Assembly: GCA_005798335.1 (NCBI GenBank)
Contig: SYJV01000075.1
Coordinates: 1-64,000, forward strand
Length of the DNA stretch: 64,000 nucleotides
Source: Planctomycetaceae bacterium
Lineage (GTDB): Bacteria; Planctomycetota; Planctomycetia; Pirellulales; Pirellulaceae
Reading direction: 5' to 3'
Below the pieces are notes generated by a model. The model did not search any database. It was not told the origin of the DNA and saw only the letters and a program-made list of their open reading frames with translations. Numbering within the stretch: the stretch's first letter is position 1; the number at the start of each line of letters is the position of its first letter. The position numbers were made by a program, and so were the translations under genes. This document shows positions 28,955 through 61,606 of the stretch, piece after piece.

Positions 28955-31900
28955 TCATGCAGCTTCGAAGTAAGCTGGATGGATATCTCGAAGCGATTTC
29001 TCAACGCACTCGACAGCCGACAATATTTGCTGTTCGCAGTGCGTGCAGTTGATAAAGAATCTTAGTCGCGCTGCCGACTCTTCTACCGCCGGATAGAGAA
29101 TGGGCTGAACGTTAAAACCCTTCTCAAACATCCGCCGAGATAATAGCAGAGCGTGCATGGAGTTGCCGGTGATCACAGGAATAACTGGCGTATCGTGTGA
29201 GTTGCCGGTATTCAATCCGCGACGCCGTGCTTCCCTCAAAAACAGCGCGGATAATTCGTGCAGGCGCGCGATGCGTTCCGGGTGTTTACGGAGCACACGC
29301 AACGAGGCTAGTGCAGCGGCGGCGTTGGTGGGCGATAGTCCCACGCTGAAAACGAATCCTGGCGCGGTGTAGCGCAACAGTTCGATCAGCTCCTTGCTGC
29401 CGGCGATGTAACCACCGCAACTGCCAAATGATTTGCTGAGAGTTCCCATCCAAATGTCGACGTCGCGAGAGTTAATGCCAAAGTGCTCCCCGATGCCGCG
29501 CCCGGTCGTTCCCATCGTACCCATCGAATGAGCTTCGTCGATCATCAGCCACGATTTGTGGCGACGTTTGACGGCAACAAACTTTGGCAAGTCGGGGTAA
29601 TCGCCGTCCATACTGTAAACGCCTTCGAGAATCACCAATACTCGGCGATAACTCGAACGTACCTCTTCGAGAATCGTCTCCAAAGATTGCCAATCATTGT
29701 GTGGAAACGGTCGACGCCGAGCACCGGAGAGAACCGCCCCTTGCACGATGCTGTTATGGGACAGCGCATCATGCACAATCAAATCGCCAGGACCGACCAA
29801 GTGGCCGATGGTGGTTTCGTTGGTCGCGTGACCGCCGACCATAACTACGGCAGCGTCTGTACCAACCCACTGAGCGATCTCTGACTCAAGTTGACCGTGG
29901 ACCTCTTTTTCTCCGCTGACCAATCGCGAAGCGCTGACGCTGGTGCCGTACTTCTTGACAGCATCGATCACCGCTTGCGTGACCTCGGGATCCCCACTCA
30001 TGCCCAGATAATTATACGAGGCGAAGCTGACCAGCTCGCGGCCGCCAATGCGCGTCGTATCGCGAGTGATTCCCTGATGGACCGAAAAATACGGGTTCGG
30101 AACGCCAGTCAATTCAAATTGGCCCATCATGCGTTTTAGTTTGCGGAATTCCGGCAACTGGTCAAAGCAGTAATCTTCGGCCGCGATCTCGCGCAATTTG
30201 TCGGCAGTCAGCCCAGTCTCGGTCGGAACTAGATCGCGTCGCAATTTGGCCTTGCCAATATGCTTTTCGATGGCGGTGGCCACTTCGCGAACCGTCTCAA
30301 TTTCCTGGAGTACTTGCTCTGGGAATCGACCACCGAAGGTCTGCTCCAAAGCGTGCGCGATCTGCATACGTTCCAAGCTATCCAGGCCCAGATCGAGCAA
30401 CAGATTGGTGTCCAATTCCAAATTCTTGGCGCGTTCCTGAGCTACCGCTCGAACCGAATCCATGACCACGTCGATAATTTCATGGTCCAGTTGCAGCTTG
30501 CCACCGCGCAGTTTGCCTTCGTCAGCAGTCGAACTCGTCGAACCTGACACCGTTGTGGTCGACAACGTCGAGGCTGCGATCATCGGTTCTTCGGCTGGCA
30601 GCTCGGCGTCCCACGACGCCCATTTGGCGACAATGGTCAAAGAGCCTGCGAGAAATTGTTGTTTGCAAGCATGTCGCTGGATCTTACCGCTGGAAGTTCG
30701 CGGCAGCGTTCCGAATCGCACCAGATACACCGCATCGGGCGGCAGCTCGTGCTGCAGAGCAACACTGCGCCGAATATCGTCGATAACCTTGCTCCAGTCA
30801 TCGCCGACCTTGCGATTCACTTCGGCAGCGACGATCAGCCGCTCTCGATCATCTGAGTTGATCGCGAAGGCAGCCACCAGCCCACTTTGCATCGAGGCAT
30901 TGGACTGCTCGACAGTCAACTCGATGTCTTGAGGATACCGATTTACGCCTCGAACAATAATCATGTCTTTGAGGCGACCAGCAATATATAATTGCCCATC
31001 GTGAATGAAGCCAAGATCGCCCGTCTTCAGAAACGGCCCCTCGCCTGCCGCAGTGTAGGCTCGAAAAGTCTCGCGAGTTGCCTCTTCTTTTTCCCAATAA
31101 CCTTGGCCTACGCTGGGGCTTTGCACCCAGATTTCACCGATGACATTTTCAGCGAGTACCTTCGCAGACTTTGGCTCAACCACGTAGATCTTCTCACCGG
31201 GTAACACGTGCCCACATGCAACTAAAGCTCGCGCATTTTCACCTCCGGAGGCGCACGGAGTGACCTTCTGCAAGTCCAACGACGCGGCATCGAACGATCT
31301 GATGATTGGCCCAACCTCGTGCGGGCCACCGGTAACGATGAGAGTTGTCTCGGCCATTCCATAACAAGGCAGGAACGCCTTTTGATTGAAGCCAACTCTG
31401 GAAAACCTCTGCGTGAATTGCTCAATCGTGGACGATCGGACGGGTTCCGCTCCATTAAACGCCGTACACCAGGTGCTCAAATCGATTCCGTCGAGTTCGT
31501 CGTCCGTGATTTTGTCAACGCACAATTGATAGGCAAAATTCGGCGCGCCGGTGATCGTGCCGCCGTAACGAGTAATTGCGCGAAACCAACGTATCGGCTG
31601 CTGCAAAAAAGTCATCGGGCTCATCAGCACGCACGGACGCCCCAAAAAGACAGGCATCAGAATTCCGCCTACCAGTCCCATGTCGTGGTAAGTCGGTAAC
31701 CAGCTCATACCCACGGCGTCTTGTCGTGTATCGAACGCCACCATGATCAACTCGGTATTTCGAACCAAGTTGGCATGCTTCAGCATGACTCCCTTGGGGT
31801 GCCCAGTAGAACCCGACGTGTATTGTAGAACTGCTAAATCGTCAGGTAAAACATGCGGGTCTTTCCAAGCGTCTGCGTGACAATCGGTCATCGAATCGGT

Positions 31901-32377
31901 GGCGATGATCGATATCGATTCCCATTCGACCCAGTTACTATCGCCCTCGATTTGTTGGCGAACTTGTTCGTTGGTGAGTGCCAATTGTGACTGGCAATCG
32001 CGGGCGATCCCGTGGATGCGCTGGCCCTTGCGATTCTTTCTGGGTGGAAAAGCTGGAACGGCAGTTGCGCCAGCATAGAGGCAACCAAAAAATCCCACGA
32101 CGAAATCGATCGCCGGTGGGTAAAGGAGCAACACCCGCTGGCCGGCCGCTCCCAATCGCTGCAGGTAGCCAGCAACCCGACGCGCTGCGATGTCCAGCTC
32201 GCCAAACGTCAATGATTGCTCGGGACCATCTTGGCCATCAACGAAGTAGAAAGCTGTTTCATTGCCACGTTCGGCGCTCCAATGCCGCAAAACTGATATC
32301 AAATCAGTGCGCGGAGGAATCCGCGTCTGCCGACCAAAATAGGGCGTCAGATCGAGAGTTTCTTCGGATGGCCTCAT
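28955..32377 (-). CDS. fatty-acyl-AMP ligase / ACP / alpha-oxoamine synthase fusion
   Basis: An 1140-residue three-domain enzyme. Residues 1-575 form a fatty-acyl-AMP ligase: P-loop YTSGSTGHPKG at 186-196, FLPCYGMAET, the TGDLG motif, and catalytic Lys565 in TSSGKIQRH. Residues about 630-710 form an acyl carrier protein with phosphopantetheine Ser667 (LGLDSLE). Residues about 730-1130 form a PLP-dependent oxoamine synthase of the serine palmitoyltransferase/KBL/AONS class: GGHATNETTIGHLV, MIDEAHSMGTMG, and the Schiff-base Lys982 (GTLSKSFGS). The chain should activate a fatty acid, load it on the ACP and condense it with an amino acid to a 3-keto-amine. ATG 32377 has AAAGG 5 bases upstream. 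The frame extends to 32440. The amino acid and product are unknown, and no reductase or other lipid gene is adjacent. Confidence 0.9.
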   Translation of the reverse strand: MRPSEETLDLTPYFGRQTRIPPRTDLISVLRHWSAERGNETAFYFVDGQDGPEQSLTFGELDIAARRVAGYLQRLGAAGQRVLLLYPPAIDFVVGFFGCLYAGATAVPAFPPRKNRKGQRIHGIARDCQSQLALTNEQVRQQIEGDSNWVEWESISIIATDSMTDCHADAWKDPHVLPDDLAVLQYTSGSTGHPKGVMLKHANLVRNTELIMVAFDTRQDAVGMSWLPTYHDMGLVGGILMPVFLGRPCVLMSPMTFLQQPIRWFRAITRYGGTITGAPNFAYQLCVDKITDDELDGIDLSTWCTAFNGAEPVRSSTIEQFTQRFSRVGFNQKAFLPCYGMAETTLIVTGGPHEVGPIIRSFDAASLDLQKVTPCASGGENARALVACGHVLPGEKIYVVEPKSAKVLAENVIGEIWVQSPSVGQGYWEKEEATRETFRAYTAAGEGPFLKTGDLGFIHDGQLYIAGRLKDMIIVRGVNRYPQDIELTVEQSNASMQSGLVAAFAINSDDRERLIVAAEVNRKVGDDWSKVIDDIRRSVALQHELPPDAVYLVRFGTLPRTSSGKIQRHACKQQFLAGSLTIVAKWASWDAELPAEEPMIAASTLSTTTVSGSTSSTADEGKLRGGKLQLDHEIIDVVMDSVRAVAQERAKNLELDTNLLLDLGLDSLERMQIAHALEQTFGGRFPEQVLQEIETVREVATAIEKHIGKAKLRRDLVPTETGLTADKLREIAAEDYCFDQLPEFRKLKRMMGQFELTGVPNPYFSVHQGITRDTTRIGGRELVSFASYNYLGMSGDPEVTQAVIDAVKKYGTSVSASRLVSGEKEVHGQLESEIAQWVGTDAAVVMVGGHATNETTIGHLVGPGDLIVHDALSHNSIVQGAVLSGARRRPFPHNDWQSLETILEEVRSSYRRVLVILEGVYSMDGDYPDLPKFVAVKRRHKSWLMIDEAHSMGTMGTTGRGIGEHFGINSRDVDIWMGTLSKSFGSCGGYIAGSKELIELLRYTAPGFVFSVGLSPTNAAAALASLRVLRKHPERIARLHELSALFLREARRRGLNTGNSHDTPVIPVITGNSMHALLLSRRMFEKGFNVQPILYPAVEESAARLRFFINCTHCEQQILSAVECVEKSLRDIHPAYFEAA

Positions 32378-33142
32378 TGCGACCTTTGAAACGAAATTAC
32401 TCAAGCTCAACACAGTGTGAGACGTTTGTTGGCAATCCATATGTCCATCCGTGGAGAAACTAAGTCCCTTTGAATTTTGCCGTAACCATCCATGGTCGCA
32501 ACGTCAAAATCTCTAACCAAACTCTTTCGAGGGGTGCGATTTCATAATGCGCATCGTCCGCGCGCAGCAACAATTTAGCAAAATCCCGAACAATTACTCA
32601 GCAAGGAGCCAATCTAGTCGCGAATTGCCTGCAAAGTGCGCGAAAGCACTCCGTATTACCCACTATTCTTGAGTAATTGCTAGCGCAAGTTCAATTCCAA
32701 CCTCTGTGCGGTATTTTTTCCACTTGCCGTGAATGCTCGCATTCCGCCCAATATCCAGCCGGCGCAATCAGGCTCAATCAAGAGTATCGACGAAGTGAGT
32801 GAAGCTCTGGCATCGAATTTTGCCACCTAAAGCTCTTTTTAGAAACTAATGACACCCTAATATTAGCCGGATCTCGGGAATGCAACCTAGAAGCGTAGCT
32901 TCGGCGCAAAGTCATAGCTTTGCCATGCCAGCTCAAGTCCCCGCGCTTGGTGAGTCTCTACCTGAAATCGGCGGGAAGCGTCATTGGCGTAGAATTCGAC
33001 ATACTCGTTCTAACCGCGAAATCTAGACCCGATAGAACCAGCAAAGTTGGGCAATATTATCGGGATTGCACACTATGCGCGCGGCCATGGGATCTAATTC
33101 ACTATTCCAAAATCGAATTCGATCCAGGGACTTGGTGTCATC
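32378..33142. other. long intergenic region, divergent promoters
   Basis: About 765 bases between two divergent large genes. Frames here (for example 32920-33150) have no recognisable content. One perfect 10-bp inverted repeat (CAATTACTCA at 32591-32600 with TGAGTAATTG at 32670-32679) spans 89 bases. A/T-rich runs occur near 32710-32720 and 32830-32865. I see no RNA gene. Confidence 0.4.
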
Positions 33143-52359: not shown

Positions 52360-53910
52360 CTAAGCGATGCCAAGCAGTTTGCGAGCTTCCTCTTGACCGG
52401 GTGCTGGATTTCCAAATTCGCTGGCGGTAACTCGCGCAAGTGCGATCAGGTGATTCCAACGCAGCGAAGGTCGCGTCTTCACAAACTCTTCTCGCACGGT
52501 GCGATAGAATTTTTCTGCGTGCAGCGCGCCGTCTTCGCTGACGGCGAATGGTAGCAGCGCGGTGAAAACGGATTCGGCAGGCGCTTGTTTGCGATGGAGT
52601 TCGTATACCGCGGCGCATGCGCGTAGTTGGCTGCCGGAGCGTACTGCACCGGTCAGTTCAGCGATCAAGGCTGTCGAGTCCGTGGATCGCAATTGTTCCG
52701 CTTGAGCGGCGTAACCGATCGGATTGGGGCCAACGTTTCTCGTTTGACCTGCCGTGTGGAACGCACCGACGATCAAGCTGGCAACTTGATTGCGGTGGTT
52801 GCTGACCTTGGCAATATTTCGCCATGCGTTCGCCGAATCCATGGCGTGGACACCGACGCTGGCGCCGTGGACGCTGCCAGTTGGCTTGGCGGGAGATGCA
52901 TACTTGGCGAGCATGCCTGGATCGTGCAACAACAGACGATTGGCGGCTAGGGATAGAGCCTCACCAATGGCATCCGCTGCTACGCCATCGGCGAGTGCTT
53001 CGGCAACGGCTCGAGCCGCTTGCGCGCGATCTTCACTGAAGATAACTTGAGTCAGTTCATTCAGCGCCGCGTCACTTAGCTCTTGGCTCCCCAGTGTTCG
53101 GCCCTCGAGTCCAAACTCGGTCAACAACTTGGGCAGCAAATCGCGAATCGCCGATGCGGACGAATTGTTCTTGATGCGGCGCTGTTCCGCATCCACACAA
53201 TAGCGCAACGATTGGCGTAGCAACGTATGAGCGTGTTGTTTGCCGGTGACATCCAACATCATCCAACTGCGCCATGCCAATACGGTACGATGCACGTCCA
53301 CTTCGTCTTGAATGGCGAATTGCAAATGGTTGTAGGCTTCGTTGGGAGTAGCGCTGGCTAGAACTGCGAACAATTCCTCGGCATGATCGAAGTCCGCGCC
53401 GCGGGTTGCTTGCTGCAACATGTTTCCGTCTGGCTTGACGCCCGAACGCTGAGCCGCTTCGATACGACGCAGCACTTCCTTTTCATTGGTGCCGGTTGTT
53501 TGGATGCGATTGGTATTGCGGTAGAAAACTTTCAGCAGCGGCAAGAGTTTCTGTTGTGCAGGTAGTTCGCGAGCCATCTCCAGTGCCGGACCGAGCGCCA
53601 TAAATGTGTGATAGCCGTCGTAATCTTGGCCACCGAATGCGCGAGCGTTGGCTAGCGCGGCCGCAGCAGTCAACGTCTTGAGGTCCGCGCCGGCAGTGTG
53701 TTTCTCAACCACCGCCGCTTGCAGTTTCGCGATCGGAGTATTTTCCATCATATCGACCAGCGGTCCGATATCACCGAACTCGAGGCGGTCATTCTCTTCG
53801 CGGGCGCACACTTGTTCCAAACCTAACTCGGTCGCCAAAGAAGTTCCGACCGTTGCCACCAACATGCCTTTTCCAACGTCCGCCAAAAATTCACGTCGTT
53901 CACGTTTCAT
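52360..53910 (-). CDS. Tat-exported protein of unknown function
   Basis: A 516-residue protein. ATG 53910 (GGGAG 10 bases upstream) gives MKRERREFLADVGKGMLVATVG, a twin-arginine signal. The frame is open to 53961. The mature part is almost wholly helical and Ala-rich (AKLQAAVVEKHTAGADLKTLTAAAALANARAFGG, AQAARAVAEALADGVAADAIGEALSLAANRLLL), suggesting helical repeats. Conserved-looking His and Asp residues occur (DYDGYHTFMALG, VGAFHTAGQTRN) but no catalytic pattern is recognisable. It is monocistronic. Confidence 0.75.
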   Translation of the reverse strand: MKRERREFLADVGKGMLVATVGTSLATELGLEQVCAREENDRLEFGDIGPLVDMMENTPIAKLQAAVVEKHTAGADLKTLTAAAALANARAFGGQDYDGYHTFMALGPALEMARELPAQQKLLPLLKVFYRNTNRIQTTGTNEKEVLRRIEAAQRSGVKPDGNMLQQATRGADFDHAEELFAVLASATPNEAYNHLQFAIQDEVDVHRTVLAWRSWMMLDVTGKQHAHTLLRQSLRYCVDAEQRRIKNNSSASAIRDLLPKLLTEFGLEGRTLGSQELSDAALNELTQVIFSEDRAQAARAVAEALADGVAADAIGEALSLAANRLLLHDPGMLAKYASPAKPTGSVHGASVGVHAMDSANAWRNIAKVSNHRNQVASLIVGAFHTAGQTRNVGPNPIGYAAQAEQLRSTDSTALIAELTGAVRSGSQLRACAAVYELHRKQAPAESVFTALLPFAVSEDGALHAEKFYRTVREEFVKTRPSLRWNHLIALARVTASEFGNPAPGQEEARKLLGIA

Positions 53911-54284
53911 GGCCAAGTGCTCCCGTAAGAGAATAGAATGGACACCGATTCCACAGCACATTCGCGATGCAAAACAAGCATGTGCTACGCGTCGCTAATC
54001 AAGGTGAATTGTATCGTATTCAACTATGCGATCCCATAACATTGCGAGAAAATAGTCCAAGCATTCACCTTCACAGGACGGGATGCTTGCAGCCCGAATG
54101 GAACTTCCGACAACCAGCAACACGTTTAAAAGAAGTGTCTCAAGAGTGCCCTAACTAATGCGAGCGGCAGATGGAATTTAACCATACCAGCCCGAAGCGC
54201 AAGCGAGTGCGTGCTAGGATTCATGCACTCGCTTGCGCTTCGGGCTGGTACTAGTAAATTCCATCTGCCGCTCGCTTAAGTGTT
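53911..54284. other. intergenic region with long palindrome
   Basis: 374 bases between two minus-strand genes. It contains the nested palindrome at 54160-54275 (annotated separately), and the promoter of the 53910 gene should lie in 53920-54150. No other gene or RNA is recognised. Confidence 0.5.
54160..54275. terminator. nested perfect palindrome; AGCCCGAAGCGC family, copy 3
   Basis: A 21-base outer arm (54160-54180, starting GCGAGCGGCAGATGG) pairs perfectly with 54255-54275. A 26-base inner arm (54185-54210, TACCAGCCCGAAGCGCAAGC and on) pairs perfectly with 54225-54250. The 116-base structure begins 10 bases after the TolC-like stop codon (minus strand), so it probably terminates that transcript. 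The inner arm matches the palindromes at 38033 and 44451. The outer arm is unique in this window. Confidence 0.7.
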
Positions 54285-56201
54285 CTATGGGCCAGTTGCC
54301 GGAATTGCGATGACGGTGTCGCGCACCGTCGGTGTGGCCTGAAAATCTTGGATTTGCCGGCGCTGATTGGCATCGACGTATCCGCTGGGCGAAGCCAGTG
54401 ACTCGGTTAAGCTAATGTTACAAAATCGCAGCAAAGTTCCTTTTTCGTAATGCACGTTGCGTAGGGCAAGTACGTATTCGACTTGAGCCTGATGGAATCG
54501 CTGGCGCGCGTCGAGCAGCCGACGGTGAGTTTCCAAGCGCACGTCGAGTTCGGCTTTTTCGCCCTGATCGGATTTGGCTTGAATCGAATTCAGTTGAGTT
54601 ACGATTGCGTCCAATCGCGAGTACTGCAAGTTCATATTCTCAAAGGCTCGCTTGCATTCGTTGATGGCGTTGCTCAAGCCAAATGTTACATAACGTTCTT
54701 GCTCTCGCAAAACTTCGACCTCGCGCACCAGTGCGAGCTGGGAATTGCGGACTGCGGCATAGGCTCGCCGAAAACCGACTGGCAGGTTGTATTCCACGCC
54801 AAGCTGCCATTCCTGCAGAGTGCCATCGGTTAAGTTGGCGGTCGCGCTGGCGGGTCCGAACAAATCGTCGTCGAAACCGCGCAAGCGATAACGACCGACG
54901 ACATCCAGTTGTGGTTTAAGAAAATTTCGATTGGCCACAAGTTCTAATTCGCGCTGTTTGATGATCCACCGTTGTCGGCGAATTTCTTCTCGATGTTCTA
55001 AGGCTTCGGCGATACATGTCGGCCAGTCGTGCAAGATCGGGACCACCGATGGCGAATCGACTGTACGGATCAGTTTTGTGTCATTGATGGGCAAGCCGAT
55101 CATGAGCCTCAACTTGCGCTCGGCGACTCTCAAGCCGCCGATCCCGCGAAAGCTGCCGCCGGAACTGCCGTTGTTGGTGCGCGTACCATCGAACGGTCGA
55201 CCATTGAGCGCATCAATGATGTCGGATTGAAATCGATAGACTTGTTCCTCGGCTTGCGCTTTGTTGCCGCGCGCTGTGGCTGTGTCGTCTAGTTTGTTGA
55301 GTGTATCGACAGCGATATCGCGAGCTTCGATCTTGGCTTCCAGATCTCGATACGCGTAATACAGGTCCCAATAAGTGTTTTCTACATCGGCCACCAGGTC
55401 GCGCACCGAGCGCTGGAAATCTGTCAGCGTTACGTCCGCGCGAACTCGAGCAATCAGAACACCATTCAATTGCCCCGGCGTCGCACCTGGCCCGGCGATG
55501 CGATTAAATTCTGTTCCCGCTCCTTGCAGTAACGCTTGACGTGCTTCAGCATCCACGTAGGTATCCCAAGACCGAGGTCCCAGCGCGTTGGATAGCTGAT
55601 TATTTCGGTCGTAGGTCGTTATGTTTCGGAACGTGAATAATCCGCCCGTAGCAGACCGCTTGTTCACGCCCCACTGAGTGACATTGAGATCTTGATTGAA
55701 AAGACCGTTGTTACCGAAGAATTGATTATTCAAGCGACGGTCGTTTTGGTCGAAGTACGTGTTGGCGAACAAGTTGGCGTCAAATGCGCTCAGTGCCGCT
55801 TCCTCTCCCAAACGAGGGTCGGTAAAGACGAGCGCTGGCTCGAACGTTGTCGTGGTACCTTGCGGCGAGCGCACCACGGTGCCACCGAGATCGCGCATCA
55901 CGCGGGATGTGGCCAAGGCATGACGAATGCACTCATCGAGCGTCAGTGGAAGAGTATTCTCTGTCGCTAGCGAGGATTCGTTCAAATCGAGTGGAGAAAC
56001 GCTCTCTAAATTTGGAATGGTGCAGGGAGTTTGAAGATTCGGATACGAAATCTGAAGCTGAGTTGGCCCGCACGCTGGGAGCGGGGAGGGCAGGACGCAA
56101 GCTTCCTTACAAAAGTTGACCCTCGAGTGGTCAATGCTGCAGCCACTGGCCAAGGCCAAGGTAAGCCCCAAAGCGGCTGTCGGAATTCGTGCACTGAGCA
56201 T
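54285..56201 (-). CDS. TolC-family outer-membrane lipoprotein
   Basis: A 638-residue outer-membrane channel protein. The signal ends in a lipobox with Cys21 (LALASGCSI), and AGGAG lies 6 bases before ATG 56201. The outer-membrane efflux repeats appear as long amphipathic helices (VRDLVADVENTYWDLYYAYRDLEAKIEARDIAVDTLNKL and, near the C-terminus, LETHRRLLDARQRFHQAQVEYVLALRNVHYEKGTLL). It is longer than typical TolC (about 480 residues) because of an N-terminal extension. Divergent to the HlyD/M50 genes at 56419-61606, it probably forms their exit duct. Confidence 0.9.
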   Translation of the reverse strand: MLSARIPTAALGLTLALASGCSIDHSRVNFCKEACVLPSPLPACGPTQLQISYPNLQTPCTIPNLESVSPLDLNESSLATENTLPLTLDECIRHALATSRVMRDLGGTVVRSPQGTTTTFEPALVFTDPRLGEEAALSAFDANLFANTYFDQNDRRLNNQFFGNNGLFNQDLNVTQWGVNKRSATGGLFTFRNITTYDRNNQLSNALGPRSWDTYVDAEARQALLQGAGTEFNRIAGPGATPGQLNGVLIARVRADVTLTDFQRSVRDLVADVENTYWDLYYAYRDLEAKIEARDIAVDTLNKLDDTATARGNKAQAEEQVYRFQSDIIDALNGRPFDGTRTNNGSSGGSFRGIGGLRVAERKLRLMIGLPINDTKLIRTVDSPSVVPILHDWPTCIAEALEHREEIRRQRWIIKQRELELVANRNFLKPQLDVVGRYRLRGFDDDLFGPASATANLTDGTLQEWQLGVEYNLPVGFRRAYAAVRNSQLALVREVEVLREQERYVTFGLSNAINECKRAFENMNLQYSRLDAIVTQLNSIQAKSDQGEKAELDVRLETHRRLLDARQRFHQAQVEYVLALRNVHYEKGTLLRFCNISLTESLASPSGYVDANQRRQIQDFQATPTVRDTVIAIPATGP

Positions 56202-56418
56202 CCATGACTCCTAAGTCTCTCAAACAGGCGGAAATTATCTAACCTAGGCCCTGTATCCACCCTAAGCTAACAAGCCTATTTGAGTTTATTGTTTGTTTCG
56301 GTCGTATCGATTCTCCTGGTTCAGCATTTTTTTTCTCGCCCGTAGAGCCGTGTGAAGAATTCTGGCCACACGATAAATGCGTTATCGTAAGTGTTCACCA
56401 ATTTGCGGTGGAACAAAT

Positions 56419-58362
56419 ATGCTCGATAGTTCAATCTCAGAAAATCTAGATCGATGCTTAGACGAGCTGGAGCGCTTGGCCAGAACCGATCTGTCTCGAT
56501 CGCGCCTGATCGCGGAATCGCTAGCACGCATTGACTTCCTGCTCAGTCCGCTCGGCTCCGCTTTTGTAATGCCTGCAAATGCGGCTCCGTGGATCGTGAT
56601 TTCGAAGACCCCAAGCATGCATACCGCGGAGCTGCAGAACTGGGTGATGAATCGGATTTGCATCATTCCACCTACAAATCTCAAGGTTGAACAAATCCAG
56701 CCGACTCAGTTTCGCTTGCTCATGTTGCTGGATCCCAACGACCTATCCAAGGGTGGGCTCGTTGTCGATCTGCCGGAAGTTCCCACGACAGCCTTAAAAG
56801 CACTGGTTTCGGCGATCGCGGAGATCATCCTTGTAAGTTCGTGGCGTCAAATCGACCATTTTCTTAGGCATCCGTGGGAACGGTTTCAGCGCGCGATGCA
56901 CGACTTGGCAACCGTATCGAGTTTGCAAGCAGCGGCGGTCCTGTTAGTAAACGAATTGCGTGTTGCGACGGACAGCGATCGAGTGTCCCTGATTGGCTCG
57001 ATTGGGCGTGGACGCAAAAGAGTTTTGGCAACAAGTACGGTGTCCGAATTCGAAGGAAAATCTGCTGCAATTGATGCGATCGAACAATGGGCAGGAGCTT
57101 GTTTGTCGTCTGGGCAATCAAAGACACAGTCGGCGCTGGACGCCAGCGAATCGAATTCTTCGCACGCTTCGCCAGTGCCTCGCAAACCGTCCGACTTGCT
57201 CTTGCATGCTTTGGCGCTACCATTGAACGAAAATGCAACAGTCAAAGATGAACAATCCAAAGACTCAACTCTCTCAAATCCGTCGAATGCATGGTGTGTT
57301 GTGCTGGAGTGGAATTCGCTCGATCGGTTTCATGCCGAATTGCCGAAAGTGAATGCGCTTAGTGCGAGCGTAGCAAACGCTTGGTTGGAGCGAGTTCGCT
57401 GGTCGAAGGTTCCTTGGTTTTGGCGACGGTTGGTGACACGTCCCGGTGAGCAACGAAATGGTTTCGGGCGCGCGGGCAGTTGGGCGATGGGAATTTTTGT
57501 TGCGATCTGCGGCGGGTACCTGGCAAACTTGCCGACCGAGTTGGTAATTGAAGCACGAGGTGTGCTTCAGCCATCGCTGCAGCGGATGGTTTTTGCGACC
57601 AATGATGGCTATGTGGATCGGTTGTGGGTGGAGGACGGGCAAACTGTGACGATGGGACAGCCAATCGCTCTTCTACGCTCGCCGCAGCTCGACAATCGTC
57701 GGGAGGAGCTCAGCGGGGAGCTGATGACGCTGGCCGAGAAACGAAGTGGTCTGTTGGTCGCGGAGAACCAGATTCAGGCAAGTGATCCGTCCGCCGCGGT
57801 GTCTCAAGGGCGAATTGCCGCTGAAGTACGCGAGATCGATGCACATCAGAGAAGTTTGCGAGAACTGGACGAGTTACTAAAATCCGAACACGAAAAACTG
57901 GAGTTGCTCAGTCCCATCGACGGAATCGTCGTCGCGAATCAGATTCAACGCAATTTGTTATCGCGTCCTGTTCGGCGCGGAGATGCGCTGCTGAAAATAG
58001 TTGCCGTGGATGGGCCATGGCGCATCGAAGCGCGTCTGTCCGATCAAGACTCAGCTTACGTGCGCAAGTATTTTGATCAATTCTCGGTAAATCAAGACCA
58101 GGCTGCTGGCGGCGTCAAGTTTCTGTTGGTGGCCCGTCCCGAACTGCGATTTCGCGGAAGCTTACAATGGATTTCCAAATCAACTCACAATGATGGCAAC
58201 GGAGCGTTCGTTGACGTGCACATTGCTGTGGAACAATTTGTGGTCGGACATGGGCAAATCGGATCGACAGTGGTAACGCATATTTCTTGTGGCCAACAAC
58301 CGTGGTGGTTCGTGCAACTTCGACCGCTGATCGAGGCCATGCAGCGCAGATTTTGGATCTGA
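56419..58362 (+). CDS. GAF-domain / HlyD membrane-fusion adaptor
   Basis: A 647-residue fusion. Residues about 160-325 resemble a GAF sensor domain (AMHDLATVSSLQAAAVLLVNELRVATDSDRVSLIGSIGRGRKRVLATS, ending AWCVVLEW). One transmembrane helix lies at 352-372 (WAMGIFVAICGGYLANLPTEL). Then come a biotinyl-lipoyl half (VIEARGVLQPSLQRMVFATNDGYVDRLWVEDGQTV), a coiled coil (about 420-495) and the returning lipoyl half (LLSPIDGIVVANQ). The GAF part should thus be cytoplasmic and the adaptor periplasmic. ATG 56419 (GGA upstream) is preferred over 56377. Coupling a ligand or redox sensor to an export adaptor is unusual. It lies 20 bases before the next gene. Confidence 0.85.
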   Translation: MLDSSISENLDRCLDELERLARTDLSRSRLIAESLARIDFLLSPLGSAFVMPANAAPWIVISKTPSMHTAELQNWVMNRICIIPPTNLKVEQIQPTQFRLLMLLDPNDLSKGGLVVDLPEVPTTALKALVSAIAEIILVSSWRQIDHFLRHPWERFQRAMHDLATVSSLQAAAVLLVNELRVATDSDRVSLIGSIGRGRKRVLATSTVSEFEGKSAAIDAIEQWAGACLSSGQSKTQSALDASESNSSHASPVPRKPSDLLLHALALPLNENATVKDEQSKDSTLSNPSNAWCVVLEWNSLDRFHAELPKVNALSASVANAWLERVRWSKVPWFWRRLVTRPGEQRNGFGRAGSWAMGIFVAICGGYLANLPTELVIEARGVLQPSLQRMVFATNDGYVDRLWVEDGQTVTMGQPIALLRSPQLDNRREELSGELMTLAEKRSGLLVAENQIQASDPSAAVSQGRIAAEVREIDAHQRSLRELDELLKSEHEKLELLSPIDGIVVANQIQRNLLSRPVRRGDALLKIVAVDGPWRIEARLSDQDSAYVRKYFDQFSVNQDQAAGGVKFLLVARPELRFRGSLQWISKSTHNDGNGAFVDVHIAVEQFVVGHGQIGSTVVTHISCGQQPWWFVQLRPLIEAMQRRFWI

Positions 58363-58382
58363 AAGAGTTTCCGGTGCGACAA

Positions 58383-59363
58383 ATGCTTCATAGCTTTGAA
58401 AGAGACAACATGTTGGGTGCTCGTTTGGGCCGTCAGTTAATAGGGAACGACGTCTGGTGGATGCACGGTTTACTTATTGGCAGAAATGCGTGGCGAGTTG
58501 CCGGACTGATCTTGTTGATGGTCTCGCCCTCGTTGGGAGAGCCGCCACTGCAGAGTCGATTGGTAATCGTAGAAAATGCGATCCTGAAGACGATCGAGAC
58601 AACTACAGTGCCAGCGGAAGCAACCGGTGTCTTGGTATCCGTTGCAGTTGCAGAAGGGAGCGTTGTGCAGCAAGGAGCCGAGTTGGCCAAGATTCGCGAC
58701 GACATTGTTCGACTACAAGTAGATCGCGCGAGATTACAGCGGGAATCGGCGCTTCGCAAACAAAAGAACGATATCAATTTACAGTTGGCGCTTAAGAGTG
58801 CGGCGGTCTCGGAGAATGAACTCAAACGAGCCGAGAATGCGAACCGAGTTGTCTCGAACACTTATCCTCAAAATGAAATCGATCGCTTGCGGTTAGTTCT
58901 GGATCGGGCTCGATTGGAAATCGAACGAGCCAAACACGAGCGAGAGCTGCAGGACATCGAAGTAGAGGTCGTCGAGAACGAGCACCGGCAAGCGCAAGAT
59001 CTGCTGGCGCGTCATCGCATTGTGGCGCCTAACAGCGGCATGATCGTCCAACTCGAAAAGAAGGCTGGGGAATGGGTTGAACCGGGCACGAAGATCGTTC
59101 AGATCGTGCGCATTGATCGCTTGAGGATTGAGGGCTTTGTGGGTGCCGCCGACGCCACGGACGATTTGGCTGGCGCGACTGCTAAGGCAGAAATAGCCGC
59201 TGGAACGAAGAATGTGCCGAGCACAGGAAAAGTTGTCTTTGTCAGTCCGGACTCGAATCCGGTGAACGGATTGGTGCGTGTGTTTATCGAGATCGAAAAT
59301 CCGCAAGGCAAATTGCGGCCAGGTCTGAAAGTCAATGCGGTAATCATGGTTCCCATAGAATGA
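58383..59363 (+). CDS. HlyD-family periplasmic adaptor
   Basis: About 326 residues from ATG 58383. Other in-frame ATGs at 58410 and 58461 are possible, and the last gives the best signal peptide (MHGLLIGRNAWRVAGLILLMVSPSLGE). The mature protein has the HlyD layout: lipoyl half (VPAEATGVLVSVAVAEGSVVQQGAELAKI), a long coiled coil (about 110-220), second lipoyl half (HRIVAPNSGMIVQLEKKAGEWVEPG) and a beta-barrel ending PQGKLRPGLKVNAVIM. The stop overlaps the M50 start (ATGA), so translation is coupled. Confidence 0.85.
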   Translation: MLHSFERDNMLGARLGRQLIGNDVWWMHGLLIGRNAWRVAGLILLMVSPSLGEPPLQSRLVIVENAILKTIETTTVPAEATGVLVSVAVAEGSVVQQGAELAKIRDDIVRLQVDRARLQRESALRKQKNDINLQLALKSAAVSENELKRAENANRVVSNTYPQNEIDRLRLVLDRARLEIERAKHERELQDIEVEVVENEHRQAQDLLARHRIVAPNSGMIVQLEKKAGEWVEPGTKIVQIVRIDRLRIEGFVGAADATDDLAGATAKAEIAAGTKNVPSTGKVVFVSPDSNPVNGLVRVFIEIENPQGKLRPGLKVNAVIMVPIE

Positions 59364-61606
59364 CGACTCTTGCGGCAATCGCAGAATCACGTCAGGTTCA
59401 CCTGCAAACGCTGCCGAGATTTCGCGAAGACATTCAGTGGTCGCGTTACATGGACGACTCAGATCAGCGCTGGGTAGCTCGCGATCCGATCTCGCTCGAA
59501 TATTACTACTTCAGTCACCAAGAAAAACGATTGACTGAATTACTCGATGGACAGGCTTCGCCTGCTGAAATATTGCGAGCAATTCAATTACAGTTTCCGG
59601 CGGCGAATATATCTGCACATTGGATGCAAGTTGTATTGCGCAAATTGGATAACGCCTGTTTGCTGCTCACCGACAGATCCGCATACGACTTGCTACATCG
59701 CAAGCAGCGCCAAAGTGTGCGCAGCGCGTTCGCTTGGTTGATCAGCCCCTTGTCGATTCGATTTCCGCTGGCGGATCCCACGCGAATGCTATGTTGGTTG
59801 GAGAACCCAGCGCGTTGGCTGTTTCATCGGTATGCTGTGGCGGCAGTGTTCAGTTTGACGCTCATGGTTGGAGTGCTGGTACTGATTCGATTGGCGGGGA
59901 GTGTATCGCTAGCCGATTCGCTGGTGCAGTTGCTGCAAGGCGAACGGTTATTTTGGCTGATCGCGTGTTATGTGTGTGTCAAATCGTTGCACGAATTGGG
60001 CCATGCGCTGGCTTGCCAGATTGTGGGCGCGGAATGCCATGACGTTGGGATTCTGCTGCTATGTTTTACGCCCTGCTTGTACTGCGACGTTTCGGATACT
60101 TGGAAGATTCCCAATCGGCTCAAGCGTGCCGCGGTTGCTGCGGCAGGGATTTACGTGGAATTAATGCTGGCCATGCTGGCGGGAGTAGTATGGTTATCGT
60201 CACAGCCAGGAACGCTGAACACATTGGCCTTGAACGTCATGGTGATCTGTTCGGTAGGTACATTACTGGTCAATGCAAATCCATTGCTGAAGTATGACGG
60301 ATACTACGTGCTGTCGGACGTTTGGGGTGTGCCGAATTTAATGCACCAGAGCCAAGAAGTTATTCGAGCATCCACTGTGGCTTGGCTATCGGGAACACGC
60401 ATGGAATCGAAACGCTGGGATGCTGGCCCGATTGGATTAGCCTTGTTTGGAATCGCGTCAACTTTGTACAGAACGCTGATGCTCGCGGCGCTGGTCTGGG
60501 TAGTTTATGTATTGTCGCGACGATACGATGCTCAATGGCTGGGCGTTGCGTTGGTTGTGGTTATGCTCGTAGGTTGGTTTTGGGTTGGGTGGCAATCGAT
60601 AATCACAATCTTGCAGGGGTTGCTGGTCCAGGGTGTTCGCCTGCGCCGATTGTCGATGCTCGTCATCGTGATGGGAGGATTGCTGTGGAGTTTGTTCATG
60701 ATTCCATGGCCCACCTATGTTCGAGCTCGTGGAGTTGGCCGCTTTGCGAACATGGAACCTGTATTTGCAGCGCAAGCTGCGACAATAACGTTTGCCGAAC
60801 AAGCTGACAGCCGAGTAACTGCAGGTGCCCCGGTGTTGATTCTCGAAAATTTCGACGCGCGGGCCAACCTAATAAGACTGCGAGCAGATCTTGCGCAGAA
60901 CCAGGAAAGAGTCGACGATTTGCAAGCCCGATCTGTGGATGATTCGTTGGCGGCACAATTGTTACCGACCGCGATGATGAGCTTGCAGGAGCTGAAATCC
61001 AAACAGGCCGCGATGCAACGAGACCTGGAGTCGCTCGAAGTTCGTGCGACAACTGATGGCGTGGTAGTTCCAAGTTCGTGGCAATTGCCGGTCAGCTTAA
61101 CGAGCCATCCTGTCGACATTTCGCGTCGCTGGTCGATTTCGGCTGAGTGTTTGGGAGGTGGCTTAGAGCGCGGCGAATTAGTTGCTTGGGTGGCGCACGA
61201 GCAAGGTGGATATTGCGTCGAAGTGATGGTGCAGGAACAAGAGAGTGACTTGCTCCACGTCGGAGCGCTAGTTCAATGCCGTTGGGATTGTGCCGCGTGG
61301 CAACAAGTGAACGGGAAAGTGAAGTCGATTTCGTCTGAGCCGATATCGAAAACTCCCGAAGAACTCCAAGGAGACTATGAACTTATTTCGATTCGCGATG
61401 GAAATGGAACGATTGTGCCCGAGCGTCCGAGCTACCTAGTTACAGTCGAAGTCGATCAAATTCCCGACGGAGCGAGCCATGGATCGCTGGTTACGGCCCG
61501 TATCGAAGTGGCATCAAGAACACTGTATCAATCGTCAGTTCGCCTATTTCAGCAGACATTTCGGTCGGCCAAGCTGTCGGACGCCATGCGGCCCACTACC
61601 CCGTAA
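59360..61606 (+). CDS. M50 site-2-protease-like / HlyD fusion membrane protein
   Basis: A 748-residue protein. Residues about 30-110 form a winged-helix PqqD-like domain (RWVARDPISLEYYYFSHQEKRLTELLDG). The membrane part has the zinc-protease motif HELGH (211-215) and the distal Asp ligand in NPLLKYDGYYVLSD (Asp313), both in predicted helices. A further helix region leads to a C-terminal lipoyl/coiled-coil adaptor (VFAAQAATITFAEQADSRVTAGAPVLI; a coiled coil near 505-560). This is the layout of 'putative peptide zinc metalloprotease' proteins found with peptide or bacteriocin export. Substrate unknown. It forms one operon with the two HlyD genes and is divergent from the TolC-like gene. Confidence 0.88.
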   Translation: MTTLAAIAESRQVHLQTLPRFREDIQWSRYMDDSDQRWVARDPISLEYYYFSHQEKRLTELLDGQASPAEILRAIQLQFPAANISAHWMQVVLRKLDNACLLLTDRSAYDLLHRKQRQSVRSAFAWLISPLSIRFPLADPTRMLCWLENPARWLFHRYAVAAVFSLTLMVGVLVLIRLAGSVSLADSLVQLLQGERLFWLIACYVCVKSLHELGHALACQIVGAECHDVGILLLCFTPCLYCDVSDTWKIPNRLKRAAVAAAGIYVELMLAMLAGVVWLSSQPGTLNTLALNVMVICSVGTLLVNANPLLKYDGYYVLSDVWGVPNLMHQSQEVIRASTVAWLSGTRMESKRWDAGPIGLALFGIASTLYRTLMLAALVWVVYVLSRRYDAQWLGVALVVVMLVGWFWVGWQSIITILQGLLVQGVRLRRLSMLVIVMGGLLWSLFMIPWPTYVRARGVGRFANMEPVFAAQAATITFAEQADSRVTAGAPVLILENFDARANLIRLRADLAQNQERVDDLQARSVDDSLAAQLLPTAMMSLQELKSKQAAMQRDLESLEVRATTDGVVVPSSWQLPVSLTSHPVDISRRWSISAECLGGGLERGELVAWVAHEQGGYCVEVMVQEQESDLLHVGALVQCRWDCAAWQQVNGKVKSISSEPISKTPEELQGDYELISIRDGNGTIVPERPSYLVTVEVDQIPDGASHGSLVTARIEVASRTLYQSSVRLFQQTFRSAKLSDAMRPTTP

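Follow-up and report, generated by a model that had tools for sequence, protein, structure and literature searches.

What does a bacterium export through a gene set that encodes an outer membrane channel, adaptors and an intramembrane protease, and no evident motor? This question is raised by positions 54285 to 61606 of a 64,000-nucleotide stretch of DNA from a Planctomycetaceae bacterium (contig SYJV01000075.1, assembly GCA_005798335.1; hereafter the window), where the list of open reading frames (ORFs) of the window confirms four genes. Pfam, NCBIfam and AlphaFold2 models bear out their assignment as a TolC lipoprotein, a GAF-HlyD fusion, a small HlyD protein, and a protein that joins a PqqD-like RiPP recognition element (RRE) to an M50 protease and a further HlyD domain (the M50 protein or M50 fusion), where RiPP denotes a ribosomally synthesized and posttranslationally modified peptide. 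The original prediction suggested a regulated system that would recognize, cleave and export a peptide. Our best reading retains the sequence of events and changes the cargo: giant surface proteins would bear an N-terminal sorting signal called LEPR-XLL, and its partner would be an exporter with a built-in intramembrane metalloprotease. The window locus is probably one copy of an ABC-less machine for export and processing of these proteins, by which LEPR-XLL would be recognized and cut.

The M50 protein is the part of the set where recognition and cleavage would be expected to meet. It matches Pfam M50 (2.5e-6), and its best NCBIfam match is daptide_HExxH (E 5.6e-49, residues 34-418). The score of 167 bits lies below the curated 300-bit cut-off of this family (NF041824), and the protein is therefore a homolog rather than a member. 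A sequence-only search against solved structures gave no significant match, and Pfam PqqD was matched in only 2 of 37 relatives. The AlphaFold2 model (mean predicted local distance difference test score, pLDDT, 86.6) contains, at the N terminus, an RRE/PqqD fold that matches leader-bound lasso-peptide B1 proteins (Z 11.1 and 10.6). In the same model, the M50 domain resembles RseP (Z 9.3) and the HlyD domain resembles MacA (Z 15.9). Judged by sequence and model, the protein is a site-2 protease, with HExxH and NP..DG residues in its membrane domain, and its N terminus is modeled as a winged-helix RRE/PqqD fold with putative leader-binding function. The idea of recognition, cleavage and export is supported by this leader-binding type of fold on an M50 protease that has a complete active site and an adaptor of its own.

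Several planctomycete modules stand next to genes for large proteins that share an N-terminal motif, comprising a basic stretch followed by LExRxLLSA. This motif is the NCBIfam domain LEPR-XLL (NF012209, "LEPR-8K"), and most of the N termini that carry it lack a hydrophobic, signal peptide-like core. The strongest of four tests that link the module to LEPR cargo comes from proteobacterial plasmids. In ten plasmid operons, the gene directly upstream of the module encodes a giant of 2,347 to ~16,000 residues, and the motif is present at the N terminus of 10/10 upstream giants, compared with 0/138 other ORFs (at least 200 residues) of those loci. The two ORF matches returned by a motif scan of the proteobacterial loci are the cargo genes themselves. 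These ten are the operons with an annotated match to the M50 protein and a readable giant start, and are not a random sample. They belong to Pseudosulfitobacter, Thalassospira, Alisedimentitalea, Variovorax, Methylosinus, Kosakonia, Citrobacter, Azospirillum, Mesorhizobium and Pontibrevibacter, and their motifs read LEPRFLLSAD, IEPRILLSAD, LEPRLLLAAD, LEARYMFDAA, LEPRVLLNAD, LEPRMLFDGA, LESRQLFDGA, LEPRFMFDAA, LEPRLLLSAD and MEPRVLLSAD. The Alisedimentitalea motif lies in an in-frame extension 5′ of the annotated start (locus L255, positions 1-1225 and upstream), which was apparently placed too late. Loci that carry SecA tend to have LLSAD-type motifs and those without SecA FDGA-type motifs, with Thalassospira as an exception.

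In five alphaproteobacterial operons, a gene for a small DUF3467 protein is located just 5′ of the GAF-HlyD or HlyD genes. The Ig-like RSP protein of plasmid R27 (IncHI) was considered as a cargo that had already been tested and was dropped, as its export reportedly needs the type IV ATPase TrhC (PMC6764697) and the sameness of the protein is not established.

The giants also speak against the substrate proposed at first. If the module exported a small leader-bearing peptide or RiPP, comparable to the substrates of the daptide and YydH/LiaK proteases, then the RRE fold and the RiPP proteases that form the best NCBIfam matches would be readily explained. However, what the conserved partner genes of related operons encode is not a peptide but a giant surface protein that begins with LEPR-XLL. 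Pfam and NCBIfam searches of the flanking genes revealed no RiPP-modifying enzyme, and no small motif-bearing precursor was found in the window, next to the module or elsewhere. We regard peptide export as the least probable of the readings considered.

Among planctomycetes, the pairing was assessed in 195 genomes of the phylum, of which 57 carry the M50 fusion (one genome was excluded because the adaptor part alone matched). NF012209 was found in 31 of the 195, and the M50 fusion is also present in 28 of these 31 (Fisher p 7e-15; family-stratified exact p 0.0023). In one family, the fusion is present in 2/17 genomes, which are exactly the two that are LEPR-positive. A LEPR profile tailored to these proteins has matches in 49/57 M50-positive genomes versus 20/138 others (p 2e-21). 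Gene positions are consistent with this pattern. Within 2 kb of a module, the density of LEPR gene starts is 4.0 per 100 kb, versus 0.75 in 40 random regions; the underlying counts are 19 starts, or 17 after removal of two evident false positives, versus 6 (17 versus 6, p 4e-4). In the phylum sample, the tailored profile yields 16 motif matches no farther than 10 kb from an M50 gene, where 1.3 are expected.

These data bear on whether the module might instead pump small molecules, as a tripartite efflux or type I-like system in which the M50 domain would be structural and the LEPR pairing would reflect a shared lifestyle of large genomes with many surface proteins. Such a pump would be consistent with the similarity of the HlyD domains to the MacA and EmrA efflux adaptors. 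It is at odds with the persistence of the LEPR-M50 association within families, the operonic giants in several proteobacterial orders, the invariant protease residues, and a module that holds no ABC, RND or MFS pump. This explanation is improbable.

Several results weigh against our own reading. The training set of the tailored profile consists in part of module-adjacent genes, and NF012209 alone gives weak adjacency, with 3 matches observed and 0.8 expected within 10 kb (p 0.04). In complete relatives, a LEPR gene falls within the 20-kb stretch in 8/28 cases versus 6/40 random ones (p 0.15, not significant), because LEPR genes are scattered. Eight M50-positive genomes have no match to the tailored profile, and a few genomes (such as G146 and G152) have LEPR-like matches and no M50 fusion. 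No LEPR cargo gene adjoins the window's own module. The source genome holds 20 LEPR candidates by the tailored profile (E <= 0.05) and 2 by NF012209, and LEPR giants adjoin two of its M50 paralogs, on contigs C49 and C5; it is likely that each of its machines acts in trans on a number of cargoes. Finally, a Vibrio LEPR-XLL giant is reported to have a C-terminal RTX region as well, a feature suggestive of type I export in that organism (PMC10868602).

The computations establish the genes present, their folds, the intact catalytic residues, the conservation of the operons and the association with LEPR-XLL giants. How the machine might operate, from binding, cleavage and its site to export, its direction, gating and energy source, we infer as follows. 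The cytoplasmic RRE fold of the M50 protein would bind the short LEPR-XLL signal with which the cargo begins (the basic stretch, then LExRxLLSA or a similar sequence), and the intramembrane M50 site would cut the cargo at this signal. The outward conduit would consist of TolC and three HlyD adaptors, of which the protease and the GAF sensor each carry one and the third is free in the periplasm; the GAF pair may gate this conduit from the cytoplasm. Leader recognition, cleavage and hand-over to HlyD-TolC are suggested by the union of RRE, protease and adaptor in one chain, the kinship with RiPP proteases, the N-terminal location of the tag and the lack of a signal peptide-like core in most cargoes.

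The same parts could instead form a release or retention machine. LEPR giants would then enter the periplasm via Sec or a C-terminal type I route, and the M50 protease would cut a LEPR anchor in response to a GAF signal, much as LapG cuts LapA. The usual role of M50 site-2 proteases is regulated intramembrane cleavage, which fits this scheme, as do the absence of a motor from most loci and the RTX region of the Vibrio giant. Yet a conduit would account for three HlyD adaptors in one unit, often with TolC, better than would a protease that acts alone in release. Moreover, the scarcity of signal peptide-like cores among LEPR N termini weighs against release, and SecA in the loci of some modules points to translocation. 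We therefore judge release or retention to be unlikely, albeit worth weighing.

Of 60 genomes, mostly from the same family or order, 59 have a relative of the M50 fusion, often in several copies; the source genome has nine matches. The concern that the genes might be scattered in relatives is not borne out, since GAF-HlyD and HlyD adjoin the M50 gene in 58/61 planctomycete loci, with TolC in only 24/61 and SecA in 8/61. As originally noted, no ABC ATPase or RND pump lies near the window module. Nor is an ATPase always encoded just beyond it in relatives, as an ORF with Walker and signature ABC motifs adjoins only isolated ones (L042, L079) and there is no conserved ABC neighbor. SecA is likewise absent near the window module. 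In a tree, the window copy groups with loci of its genus that also lack SecA, a clade in which the divergent TolC gene is mostly kept. Elsewhere in the source genome, two further SecA genes are located on contig C237 (linked to a module) and contig C481 (next to a LEPR giant), with an orphan short SecA on contig C508. Indeed, an orphan short SecA (~650-750 residues), additional to normal SecA and away from any M50 module, is present in 9/9 close genomes searched, the source genome included. Several M50-positive genomes have a single SecA gene.

SecA as a universal missing motor was thus rejected for most planctomycete loci. Candidate motors are the secondary SecA in some loci and, elsewhere, perhaps the orphan short SecA or general SecA/SecYEG. 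In four loci of the window's wider clade (L040, L043, L045 and L046), the module directly adjoins a type VI cluster (VipB/TssC, TssF, TssG and a ClpV-like ATPase). This ATPase was not adopted as a power source for the module, as its gene belongs to the type VI cluster. We tentatively suggest, with less confidence than we place in the machine itself, that the module may represent a separate secretion class, in which an RRE reads LEPR-XLL, an intramembrane metalloprotease borne on the conduit cuts it, and the cargo passes through HlyD-TolC with no ABC motor and with a SecA-like ATPase acting in cis or in trans.

The coordinates of the module and its domains are collected in Table 1.

Table 1. 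Genes, domains and motifs of the export module in the window.
Feature	Position	Strand	Basis
TolC/OEP outer membrane channel, predicted lipoprotein	54285..56201	-	Pfam OEP 2.7e-16; divergent from the other three genes
GAF-GAF-transmembrane-HlyD protein, predicted cytoplasmic sensor joined to periplasmic adaptor	56377..58362	+	Family-level Pfam; AlphaFold2 model
Tandem GAF folds, residues 13-347	56413..57417	+	AlphaFold2 model
MacA-like HlyD adaptor domain of GAF-HlyD, residues 386-645	57532..58311	+	Pfam; AlphaFold2 model
Small HlyD/MacA-type periplasmic adaptor	58383..59363	+	HlyD_3 8.4e-19 (Pfam); RND_mfp 2.2e-26 (NCBIfam)
RRE(PqqD-like)-M50 protease-HlyD fusion	59360..61606	+	Pfam; NCBIfam; alignment of relatives; AlphaFold2 model
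RRE/PqqD-like fold of the leader peptide-binding type, residues 17-105	59408..59674	+	Z 11.1 over 85/88 residues of TbiB1 complexed with leader
HExxH zinc/catalytic motif (H211, E212, H215)	59990..60004	+	Invariant in 59/59 relatives
Second M50 motif NxNPLLxxDGYY..D (N305, N307, P308, D313, D320)	60272..60319	+	Invariant in 59/59 relatives
C-terminal MacA-like HlyD domain of the M50 protein, residues 448-727	60701..61540	+	AlphaFold2 model

The TolC protein begins MLSARIPTAALGLTLALASGC.. and has the lipobox LASGC; its gene occupies the same divergent place in close relatives, for example in loci L038, L039, L042, L043, L044, L047 and L048. The claim that a GAF sensor is joined to HlyD holds at the level of the family. 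Pfam detects HlyD alone in the window protein, and the question was settled by family profiles and by fold. Among 30 members of the GAF-HlyD family, Pfam GAF is matched in 18 (best 2.6e-10), GAF_3 in 12 and HlyD_3 in all 30. The AlphaFold2 model (mean pLDDT 85.5) includes not one GAF fold, as first described, but two, at residues 13-168 (Z 15.5) and 160-347 (Z 15.0), with a transmembrane helix and a MacA-like HlyD domain (Z 17) C-terminal to the pair. Three genes are tightly coupled, as predicted: the ATG of the small HlyD gene (58383) follows the GAF-HlyD stop after ~20 bp, and the HlyD and M50 genes overlap by 4 bp. This ATG (326 residues) is most likely the true start, and is preferred over the listed TTG at 58287, which overlaps the preceding gene; the N terminus of the resulting protein is signal peptide-like.

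On the 3′ side, the module is followed by a chemosensory cluster (CheW, MCP, CheR, CheA, CheB), and we found no evidence that ties these genes to it. On the other side, the TolC gene is adjoined by a gene for a 533-residue protein (52360-53961, minus strand) with no match in Pfam (E<0.1) or NCBIfam (E<0.01). Farther away, a gene on the minus strand (28955-32440) encodes a 1161-residue protein with fatty-acyl-AMP ligase-like and BioF/serine palmitoyltransferase-like domains.

The full set with its GAF fusion had been thought undescribed. However, Kamneva, Poudel and Ward reported in 2015 that GAF-HlyD, M50/HlyD, HlyD and OEP genes surround secondary SecA_DEAD proteins in planctomycetes and other phyla; the available part of that paper notes no ABC transporter, proposes a role in secretion with SecA as the ATPase and M50 as the pore, and states no substrate (PMC4452313). 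GAF-HlyD, M50/HlyD and HlyD are encoded together in both cases, whereas the secondary SecA_DEAD of that module has no adjacent counterpart in the window. The gene set was thus already on record, and the window copy is a SecA-less variant of it. The RRE fold and the link to LEPR-XLL cargo are additions of the present analysis, the latter not reported in the literature searched. The LEPR-XLL domain, which is the same N-terminal motif as on the giants paired with the module and marks cargo rather than machine, is not linked to this module in the available part of the LEPR-XLL literature (PMC10868602).

Other known systems share parts of the design. The daptide (NF041824) and YydH/LiaK (NF058609) intramembrane metalloproteases are homologous to the window M50 protein over its RRE-like and M50 part, but their substrates are small RiPPs, and a fused HlyD lies outside their models (379 and 246 positions). 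Type I secretion systems and MacAB/EmrAB-TolC pumps likewise use HlyD/MacA adaptors and TolC, but with an ABC, RND or MFS motor in the inner membrane that the window module lacks. The closest analogy for the LEPR-M50 pairing appears to be GlyGly-CTERM/rhombosortase, where a short signal is matched to an intramembrane protease, with adjacent genes when there is a single target and scattered targets otherwise (PMC3237569). PEP-CTERM/exosortase resembles it, and both are like the proposed LEPR-M50 system in pairing many proteins that carry a short sorting signal with one intramembrane enzyme. LEPR-M50 would differ from them in its N-terminal signal, its adaptor-fused M50 metalloprotease and its dedicated conduit.

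Planctomycetes have many "giant genes", 45 of them longer than 5 kb in the case of one strain, and these presumably encode surface proteins (PMC5177795). In the literature searched, we found no paper on how these proteins exit the cell. A pair of signal and machine would make this exit route testable, and would assign a function to a module that has been known since 2015 by its domains alone. It would also show that leader-peptide recognition of the RiPP type is applied to proteins that are thousands of residues long. This operon also occurs on plasmids of alpha-, beta- and gammaproteobacteria, which are hosts with easier genetics.

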